A DNA stretch of 64,000 nucleotides from Plumapathes pennacea. Lineage: Eukaryota; Cnidaria; Anthozoa; Antipatharia; Myriopathidae. Shown here piece after piece: positions 25,924 to 37,800 of the stretch. The stretch spans positions 7,927,274 to 7,991,273 of the forward strand of contig OZ038463.1 in the NCBI GenBank assembly GCA_964036295.1. The letters run 5' to 3'. Numbering within the stretch: position 1 is the first letter of the stretch; each line of letters opens with the position of its first letter. The position numbers and the translations under genes were made by a program. The notes under the pieces are model-generated. The model was not told where the DNA came from, made no database searches, and saw only the letters and a list, made by a program, of their open reading frames with translations.

Positions 25924-26412
25924 ATGGATTTTGTTCACCGCAAAGCGTTCGACCGGCTCATAGGCGGCCTAAATGTGGAGGCCGAGAAACAGTACACGGT
26001 CAAAAACAAAAACTTCAACTTGGAGGAAAAAATTCGGGTGGACGATCCTTGCGAAAACTTTTGGCTCTGCGCTGCCAAGTGGCTGTTAGCTGTTACAATT
26101 ACCTTGTTCGTGTTTTTCTGTGTAATTTCTAGCAAGATATGCCTGTTAGTTCTCGGGGAACAATACAAAGACCTGGATAGAAGCGAAACTGAGAGATTTA
26201 CAGCAAGAAATACTACTAATAGAACAGGTGAGAGAAATGCAACGAATATTGAGGGTTTGTGGAGAAATACGGAAGGCTACTCCAGAGAGTCGCTTGTGAT
26301 AATGCTGGTGCTGGTCATCATGATTCCTCAAGGAATGTCTTTCCTGTTGGCCTTGTGGGCGGGTGCGACACGGAACAGTTATCCTTGGCCCTCGTGTAAA
26401 GGCGTTGGTGCG
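25924..26412 (+). CDS. CHS: Alternative or orphan first exon of chitin synthase (distal)
   Basis: Begins at an ATG with A at -3 and encodes 163 residues, ending in phase 0 at a GTAAGT donor. It is colinear with the proximal first exon at 34870: both share DDPCENFWLC, a KWL-containing first membrane segment, a VLG-QYKDL/VLG-QYRDL motif, N-glycosylation sequons, and a second membrane segment (IMLVLVIMIPQG here) followed by the PWPS motif. The rest is strongly diverged. No second set of catalytic exons follows before the proximal exon, so it most simply splices to exon 2 at 40351 and gives a 1569-aa isoform. It could instead be the only remnant of a duplicated gene. Confidence 0.8.
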
Positions 26413-26464
26413 GTAAGTTATTTTATACGTTTCTATTTTCACCATTTTTTGGCTTTCTTTCATT

Positions 26465-26685
26465 ACTATGCATTTTAAAGTACAGTCAACTCCATCTAAG
26501 ACGGACATCCTCGAGCCCAGCTCCAACTGCACATTTTAGAGACGTGTCTGTCTTAAAGAGAGTTCAATTAGAGTAAATGACTGAAGAAACGTCAGGGACA
26601 GCTCCTATCAGGTGTCCGTCTTAGAAAGGTGTCCGTCTTAGAGGGTCTGTCCGTTTAGAGGGAGTTCACTAGTAAGTGTTAAAAG
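26465..26685. repeat. Palindromic dispersed repeat (GTGTCCGTCTTAGAG type)
   Basis: The left end CAGTCAACTCCATCTAAGAC and the right end TCCGTTTAGAGGGAGTTCACT are roughly inverted. Internal GTGTCCGTCTTAGA motifs repeat. Related to 61628-61795 and to the target of the 18451 MITE. Confidence 0.75.
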
Positions 26686-33685: not shown

Positions 33686-33907
33686 GGGTGCGTTCGATTG
33701 GGTCTATTCCGGAATGGAATAGAGATACTGATTGATGAAATATTTTGCTTTGGAGCTGAATTATGTCGAGATGTATCGGGAGCTATTCGAAATGTCAGCG
33801 TGAAGGTTTTGAAAACAATCCCGAAAAAAAATTCCCCCAGAACAAGCAAAACTTGGATCATTTTAGCTATAATTCCTATTCCGGAATACGGTCAAATCGA
33901 ACGCACC
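33686..33907. mobile_element. 222-bp MITE, PIF/Harbinger-like, copy 2
   Basis: Same length and same inverted ends (GTGCGTTCGATTGGGTCTAT / AAATCGAACGCAC) as the copy at 9640, again flanked by TAA. The interior has diverged. Lies between the two chitin synthase first exons, about 1 kb upstream of the proximal one. Confidence 0.88.
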
Positions 33908-34869
33908 TAATGCCAGCTCAATAACGTCGAACCGGCGCAGCTTACTGGTTACCTAGTATTTTCAACATTTGCTCAGACGAATGGTTAACGCTCAAACGTC
34001 AGCAATTCTTTACAATGTTCAGCATATTCACACCAACCTTATGTAAATATACACGTTGTACGTTTTTCCCGCTATTTTTGGACAAATTTCTGAAGAATTT
34101 TGTCGCCATAATTTTATTTCATCTGTTTTATAGCCGTTATCCTAAAAGATCTCCTATTTACCTCTTACGTCAACGTCAAGGTTCCCAAATTGGCATTTCT
34201 GTCTCTGTGAAACAAAGCCGTCAAAAGGTACACTGTAATGAACAGCGACACAGATGTGTTAGTTGGTCAACAGCTCTGTAGCTCATGTAGACAATGACTG
34301 TTACTAGACAGTGGTTATCAAGAATGCGAAGTTCAAGGATCATGTTTTGATTAACCAATAATTCTGTAACGACTGTACTTCAATTTCAGTCATTTTACAA
34401 AACAGTACAGGAAAGATGAATGAGTTTATTGTAAGAACTGTTTTCTCCTTCGTTAGGGAAGGCTTTTGCATGTTTACCGTGATTACACGTTTAACAAATG
34501 AGGCACGGAAGTTAATAAAAAGAAGTGTGTTTAGTAACTTGTCTTTCGGACAGGTCGGCGCCATAAAGAATTTGAGAAAATGTCTCGCTTCCAGATCCCC
34601 AGCAACTCGGTCGCCTGTTTAGCCCATATATTGCATCCAGGGGCGTCAAAGTGCTTGACAGAATTACAATAGGCGCGAGTGTTATTTTGCGATAAGATTG
34701 ATATTGTTGTTTATGAAATATATTGGTATGGCATTTTTATAGCCACATTACACCACTCGGCAAGACAGCTCTTGTGGCACGCTGTCCTCATAGCCTTTGG
34801 TTCTCCCATGGTGGGCAGACGAAACATTTGTATTGCATAGCTGTTCAAGCCGGTCCTCTGCCATTCAAC

Positions 34870-37800
34870 ATGGATGACAACTTCGATAAACTGACTTTCA
34901 AAAGTTTCGACGCAAATCCCGCCAAAAACTACACAGTCGAGAACAAAAAAGGAATCGAGGAGAGACGGGCTGAAGATGACCCTTGCGAGAACTTTTGGTT
35001 GTGCGTCACCAAATGGCTGACGGCTCTGCTGTTGTCGGTGACTGTGCTTTTCTGTGTTGCCGGCAGCAAAGTTCTCTTATTTGTTCTTGGTCAGCAATAC
35101 CGTGATCTGGAGCGAGAGGTTACTATCAGCCGGAATGTCACGAATTCTACTCGAGCTTACAGCCCGGCCTCGCAAAGCGAAAGTCGTGGAAACAGGGAAA
35201 GTATTTTCATCATGCTTGTCATGGTGTTAATGATTCCACAACTAGTCTCCGTTCTCTTGGCATTGTGGAAGAGCATTAGACCGCACAGTCACCCATGGCC
35301 TAGTAGCAAAGCTGTTCTTTTGGTAAGTTGTCCTTTCGTGTTTGACTTGCTATCACAGCTGCCAAAATATTGACGTCTGCACGGTGCCTCGTTGTTTAAA
35401 CTCTAAAGATTGCCGGGCAAGAAAATTGTGGGCTGTTGGAATACAACAGCACAATTTTCCATTTGTGATATTGCTTCAATATTTTGATCTCAGGCCGACA
35501 TTAGGGCGAAACAATAAAAAAAACCATTACTATCACACAGCTGCGGTTTTTGCAGGCGCATATATAACAAGATAATGGAGTTAGTCATTGCAGAATTTCT
35601 CAAAAAGATCTAACTTTCACATTTATGTCTTTTGCTTGCGTAGAGGTAGAAAACGATCTAAACTGAACTACAGCAGTGAGGGTGGGCGGAACAAGTTAAC
35701 ATTATGCCGATTAGCTCTTCTACGATTACAAAGGAGAATCTTCTTCAAAATAAACCCAAAATGCGATACCAAATGAAATAATATGGAATAATAAGCTTGG
35801 TTTAGAGAAAACTATCTAGCATTAAATCCTACTCTATATAGTTTCTATATTTGAGTTTTGTAGGTGAAGTCGATTCTACATTATTTCGCCTTTATATCTG
35901 AAATAGAATATCTGTTGTTCTTGTCAAAAAACACAAAATTGGATTTCTGTTGTAGTTTTATACTCATCGATAGAGTTAGAAGATTTCCGAACTTTGTACA
36001 GAAAAGAATTTTATAGTAGCATGACGTAAATTAAGATTTCCGTATATTGTGTTCTGGGAAATCTGCTGTCAGGTTCAATGCTGTGACAACCAGGGCAATT
36101 TCTGCCCTCGGCGCTTAGAGCTTTCATAGTCGAGCATCTGGGGATTTGCACACACGAAACGACGATCATGCAACATCAACAACCAGAACAAAGAAAAAGG
36201 AAACGAAATCATCAATAACAATAACAAACGAAAAAATAAAGAAGCAGAAGAAGAAAGAAATGTGTTAGAGAAGCAATATTGTATTGATATATTTATGACC
36301 GCGTATAGGGGCAGATTAATCCCTCTGGCATACTGTTCTTATAATGAAAAAAAACTCTGTCTCTCAACCTGTAGTGTTTTGATCAAAGACTAGCTTGTTT
36401 TTACTAAAAGCTTGTTTTAGTTCAGCATATTGAGGAAGTTAGCTTCGTGGGCAAAGCCTTCTCAATTTCAGGCTTAAAAAGTTTACACCTAATCCAGAAT
36501 TAGCCAAATCGTTCTTTGAATAATCGGGTCCAGGTGATTTACGTTTAGCGGCTACACCTATATGTTTATCACTGCTGTAATCGTAAAATATTCAGGGGAG
36601 GGGTGAAGGGTGGGTAGCTGCTAACGTAAGTTCAAATATAATCTTAGCACACAGAAAACAAACTCGAGATGGACATTCATCATGATTCCCTCTTGCAAAC
36701 CAAATCTCTTGCTAATTGAAAACTATACACCGACATAAAAGATTACGAAAAACAGTCCCCACGATGACATACCAGCTGAAACCTCTTATGCTTTGTATGA
36801 CAGCGTTTCTGGTTGATAAAGGGTGCAAATGAAAAACTGTAGAATAAAAAGCCCAATATATATTTTAATCACAAGAGCAATTGACCTTTTGAGACAAAAA
36901 AGCAAGAAAATACCATATTCTTTGTAGATGTTTTTCGTTCTTACATCCTTTGATCTGAATATGTACAAGTTTAAAGGCAATCTTGTGGGGGTAAGTTGGG
37001 AATGAATAAATAATACATACAATTTTAATCCGCAAGTTGAATGTAGTCGGAGTAGATAAGATCTCCCACACACTCATGCAGTAAACCTTTAACCTAGTAA
37101 GCTTTTTCACGCTCTCCTTAAGTAGTATTGGCCTTCTTCCTCTCACGAGAATGTCTCGATAGAGCATTCAAATTCGTAAAATATATATTATTAGTAAGAA
37201 AGTACAATGAGTTGTTGCACAATTTCTTCCTAAATGACAGAAATTATTCACAAGTTAGCGTTAGATTCCTCAACAAATTAGAGTTTTGGAAAACTCTAAC
37301 TGACGCCCATTTTATCCGGTCAGAACTATGACATGTTTTGATATTGATTGAGGATATTTTTAGTCGAGAGACCGGCTTTTTCTTTTAAATTTCAGTTTAA
37401 GAACCCTATTACACCCCCTGGCTTAATGTGGATTCCACATTGAGTACTAAAACGAGTTATATAAGAACCTTTTGAATTAGCGAGTCATTGAGAAATCTCA
37501 ACACCAGTTGGAAAACAAGGCTGCTGCCTCTGCAGAATGTATTAATGATGCCCTCTCAAGGCAGTCTCAGGCCAAGGGCCTGGCAGCAGGCATTGTATTG
37601 GACTACAAAAGTTGCATTTGTGAAGCCGAGTGCTTGTTACCGGCGTGTAAAATATTAAGATTTTACTTCATTGTCTTATCCTGTCTCAAGAATAAGCATG
37701 CAGCTGTCTCAAACTTTACCCGGCAGACATAGAATAGCACATAATACATTATCTTAGTTAGCTTTATTATGGTAGTCAATCAACCATCAACCATAGTCCG

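Follow-up and report, generated by a model that had tools for sequence, protein, structure and literature searches.

A cnidarian chitin synthase gene with two putative alternative first coding exons

Can a single chitin synthase gene supply two enzymes that share one catalytic core and differ in the membrane module at their front end? The question is raised by a 64,000-nucleotide stretch of Plumapathes pennacea DNA (the window), in which a first-pass annotation had pointed to two related exons, each able to begin the same protein. On the sequence at hand, we consider it likely that the locus is a single chitin synthase gene whose two alternative first coding exons derive from an old duplication of exon 1. 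Transcripts starting upstream of the distal exon (exon A) would have it spliced over the proximal exon (exon B) to exon 2, and transcripts starting between A and B would have B spliced to exon 2. The catalytic part would be the same in both forms, with the first 150-160 residues differing at about half of their positions; this varying part would include a tail and two membrane segments, along with a loop that carries N-glycosylation motifs.

Gene layout

Exon A lies at 25924-26412 on the plus strand (489 nt, 163 codons) and exon B at 34870-35322 on the same strand (453 nt, 151 codons). Both end in phase 0 at a GTAAGT donor, and their start codons, 8946 nt apart, both have A at -3 and G at +4. 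Two in-phase, homologous first exons about 9 kb apart had been proposed from the outset, with coordinates that proved right. Downstream are 17 common exons (40351-50642), namely exon 2 at 40351-40596 on the plus strand, with the acceptor TTGCAG, and exons 3-18 at 41089-50642, also on the plus strand, which encode the Chitin_synth_2 catalytic domain, SAM domains and more hydrophobic stretches, and close with a stop codon at 50640. Clean joining of either first exon to exon 2 at 40351, also part of the original proposal, was borne out: A or B joins without a premature stop, and each spliced frame stays open over 18 exons to a single terminal stop, yielding a chitin synthase of 1569 aa with A (the A form) and one of 1557 aa with B (the B form).

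Exon borders were placed manually, guided by the sequence and by similarity to another chitin synthase gene (the second gene, described below). The common exons have AG acceptors throughout and, apart from the final one with its stop codon, GT donors. Exons 2-10 and 15-18 (13 of the 17) are backed by similarity to the second gene, and exons 11-14 (46850-48934), where the second-gene frames gave no match, were placed from frame and splice signals only. A feature of the same region is a (CAT) array of about 192 copies at 43028-43602, which forms a long open frame in several reading frames; exon 5 ends at 43022 and the array starts 6 nt further on, almost at the donor, where it could interfere with splicing or lead gene prediction astray.

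Enzyme identity and the N-terminal module

The B form matches PF03142 (Chitin_synth_2; E 8e-28, residues 621-868) and, in its C-terminal part, PF00536 (SAM; E 5e-21, two stretches), and GEDRW, QRRRW and SWGTREE are present in both the A and B forms. We take EDR, QRRRW and SWGTREE to be motifs of the animal chitin synthase catalytic domain, and the protein thus combines the features of an animal chitin synthase, a catalytic domain with these motifs and C-terminal SAM domains. Among solved structures, exon 9 gave weak matches to three distinct chitin synthase sequences (E 7e-5 to 0.006), and exon B gave none at E <= 1. A TIR_3 match in the full protein (E 0.064) was taken as chance. SAM domains are said to mark Type I enzymes, though a survey of cnidarian chitin synthases places the resolved cnidarian ones in the Type II clade and reports SAMs in some (PMC10216261).

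That A and B encode the same N-terminal module was upheld by a tblastn match of 46% across 154 columns (E about 4e-39); identity is 75/140 aligned residues in a gap-trimmed alignment and 49% in a MAFFT alignment. Hydropathy gives two membrane-type hydrophobic segments in each exon, and the C-terminal ends read PWPSCKGVGA in A and PWPSSKAVLL in B. The NXS/T sites of A (N96, N99 and N105) all fall in the loop between the two segments, as do N89 and N92 of B, which has a further site, N20, in its N-terminal segment. The suggestion that the two forms differ in N-glycosylation sites holds in part, in that N105 is clearly private to A in the loop, whereas N96 and N99 coincide in the MAFFT alignment with N89 and N92 of B or lie next to them. 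Searched alone against Pfam, exon A gave no match and exon B one match below the cut-off (CD20, E 0.033), which was taken as chance. A search of viral contigs for relatives of exon A produced 11 stretches that fit a pattern, none of which encodes a relative.

One catalytic set in the window and a second gene nearby

The second chitin synthase gene spans C2:7894390-7908539 on the minus strand, in the opposite orientation to the window gene. Its exon 1, at C2:7908219-7908539 on that strand and 44.7 kb away from exon A, has the same design as A and B, with 107 codons and the donor GTAAGG. The open frames that follow match the catalytic and C-terminal exons of the window, and from its sequence the gene is apparently complete. 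The two genes form a divergent pair of synthase genes.

The open frames of the second gene of at least 25 residues were used as queries against the 64-kb window, with a cut-off of E <= 1e-3. The 13 common exons matched in this way have one corresponding plus-strand place each, and the exon 1 frame matches both A and B; the leftover matches in the window are short, fall either in a different frame of these exons or at another site, and look like repeats. Between 26.4 and 34.9 kb, no second-gene frame besides exon 1 matched at this cut-off, and the window contains no Ns. A separate gene between A and B, with A as part of it, was considered and rejected, since this search revealed no other synthase exon in that interval. 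The first-pass claim of a single catalytic set stands within the window, where each matched exon has its one place, but not for the genome, where another synthase gene, apparently complete, lies 45 kb from A.

With exon-1 queries against the genome at E <= 1e-3, at least A, B and the exon 1 of the second gene were returned, among the best candidates scored (7 and 8), and the genome may contain more synthase genes that have different first exons. For the second gene, the 40 kb searched yielded one confident exon 1 and no other. Two weaker matches were set aside. The first, of exon B to C2:7913100-7913192 on the minus strand, 4.6 kb upstream of the exon 1 of the second gene (35 residues, E 0.011), lies in an open frame that is leucine-rich by eye. 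The second, of a query made of B plus exon 2 to C5:16166877-16167293 (27% identity, E 0.0175, four stops), may be a chance hit or the remains of an old synthase.

Over 105 shared columns, A and B are identical at 56, A and the second gene at 41, and B and the second gene at 47. With A and B more alike than either is to the second gene, their duplication probably took place after the two genes split.

Divergence and constraint

If the two exons are old duplicates, exon A might be a relic, either a duplicate or what is left of a tandem synthase gene since lost, that was kept until recently and is now unused, with B as the real first exon. We regard this as unlikely, although A is the distal copy and, by the counts just given, slightly further than B from the second gene. 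The missing matches between 26.4 and 34.9 kb weigh against such a history, as they leave no trace of a second gene body.

The state of the exon itself also bears on the question. As DNA, the A and B regions align only between 25982-26419 and 34919-35329, that is, over the coding exon and its donor (a 41-nt opposite-strand match, E 0.53, was taken as chance). Mismatches at codon positions 1, 2 and 3 are 0.41, 0.26 and 0.57, and the Nei-Gojobori method gives a dN of 0.44 and a nearly saturated dS of 2.0. With about 42% of nucleotides mismatched between the two copies, exon A keeps its frame, start, motifs and donor, which argues against a relic. In 2000 simulations of neutral change starting from B, run with no selection and no indels and with assumed base composition and transition bias, the frame remained stop-free in 4 at the full mismatch, in 51 at half and in 238 (12%) at a quarter. 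As neutral frames so rarely stay free of stops, long neutrality of exon A is unlikely; A has been kept open for longer than drift usually allows, and its first description as long diverged and still open is supported. The quarter-divergence figure favours the relic, since A would stay open in that share of simulations if it had lost its function only within the final quarter of the divergence, and the two-copy comparison is to this extent compatible with recent disuse of A.

With the exon 1 of the second gene as outgroup, over the 105 shared columns, A has 13 private changes and B has 7 (chi-square 1.8); A may evolve a little faster than B, though not significantly so, and shows no clear relaxation. 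A codon branch model of the three sequences, a weak test given saturated data and branch lengths at their bounds, puts the cost of neutrality at 2.28 lnL for A and 2.31 for B (2 x lnL difference of 4.57 and 4.61, respectively). The length of exon A is by itself weak evidence. Among 300 Markov sequences of 16 kb, 12 contained a plus-strand stop-free run of at least 163 codons, the longest being 198, and none of the 300 reached the 235 codons of the stop-to-stop run that holds A.

A duplicated exon elsewhere in the window did decay, which lends the relic explanation some support. At 12939-13256 on the minus strand is an open stretch with a Pfam SSF match, from the first exon of a sodium:solute symporter gene that starts near 13.26 kb and has further exons recognized by eye. 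A partial duplicate of this stretch, with an aligned span of 21142-21425 on the minus strand and 91% identity over 252 nt, lies about 8 kb upstream of the original; a 62-nt internal deletion breaks its frame, and the similarity stops where an AAT-type run starts in the copy. The younger symporter duplicate has decayed and the older exon A has not, a contrast that speaks for two alternative first exons but provides one example and not a rate.

Splicing and promoters

Very improbable, in our assessment, is a message that contains both exons, with A spliced in phase to an acceptor before B such that the protein has a doubled N-terminal module. The frame is open for the 153 nt before the ATG of B (34717-34869, plus strand), and two AG sites in this stretch, which would start exons at 34765 and 34819, are in phase with A. 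Each has 12/20 pyrimidines, which is no worse than 4 of the 17 acceptors in the gene model, that of exon 2 included. The two sites nonetheless rank with the poorest in the gene (median 14/20), and B starts with a well-placed ATG in good context. To our knowledge, no animal chitin synthase has a doubled N-terminal module. That A and B are alleles set side by side by the assembly is scarcely credible: misplaced alleles are a general risk for which no specific support was found, and here about half of the residues differ, the flanks do not align, and the N-free window belongs to a contig of 37.9 Mb.

If the two exons are alternatives within one gene, as we favour, A and B probably have separate promoters. 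They may then be used in different tissues or stages, with possible effects on trafficking or on the partners of the enzyme. A possible TATA box for A, TATATAAG at 25048-25055 on the plus strand, lies 0.88 kb before its start codon; it is one of 4 such sequences on the plus strand of the window, 9 ATGs stand between 25080 and the start of A, and we treat it as only a lead.

Related arrangements and significance

The kind of layout is already known, and the window gene would be a cnidarian chitin synthase example of it. In the UGT1, UGT2A, Gcnt2 and protocadherin alpha/gamma genes, none of them homologous to the chitin synthase gene, tandem duplicated first exons encode similar N-terminal modules and share one constant set; the window likewise has homologous tandem first exons that share a phase and precede a single constant set. 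The two variable exons of human UGT2A show 64% nucleotide identity, and in Gcnt2 a distinct promoter precedes each variable exon (PMC1885805). Our best reading is that the window gene represents a two-member version of the UGT1/Gcnt2 layout, like BmCHSA-2a/2b of Bombyx mori in effect.

The likeness to BmCHSA-2a/2b is that of one chitin synthase gene with alternative 5' exons. In the silkworm, two promoters, the second of which sits in the intron between the alternative exons, give otherwise nearly the same protein, and RNAi of the BmCHSA-2b form leaves the wings undeveloped (PMC6001065). The silkworm gene differs in being an insect gene of class A, from Lepidoptera, with exons named 2a and 2b. 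Its arrangement is reportedly Lepidoptera-specific, as the title of a 2017 paper has it, and for this reason we infer that the cnidarian one arose independently. We lean, by a modest degree, towards the fuller proposal that a cnidarian chitin synthase independently evolved a two-promoter switch of duplicated first exons, whereby either of two old N-terminal modules would direct one catalytic core to different tissues or membranes, with an effect comparable to that seen for the silkworm wing synthase. Insect CHS1 variants such as SfCHS1a/b come from a choice between internal exons, which sets them apart from the window gene with its putative choice of first exons. SfCHS1a/b are two splicing variants of one CHS1 gene of Sogatella (PMC6355952).

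No cnidarian chitin synthase with alternative first exons was among the matches listed in a search of titles and abstract openings in the open-licence literature. The cnidarian survey cited above clustered its sequences at 95% identity, removing fragments and isoforms, and the strings 'splic' and 'exon' are absent from its main text (PMC10216261); alternative N-termini were therefore not its subject, and isoform-merging surveys of this type are not designed to seek such first-exon pairs. If both exons are used, one gene would make two synthases that are alike except for the N-terminal membrane module, the role of which the pair would put to a natural test, and a second chitin synthase lineage, besides moths, would have switchable front ends.

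Another local duplication is seen at C2:7920936-7921304 and C2:7923482-7923847 on the minus strand, where tandem, similar open frames encode a small membrane protein that presumably resembles TMEM267.
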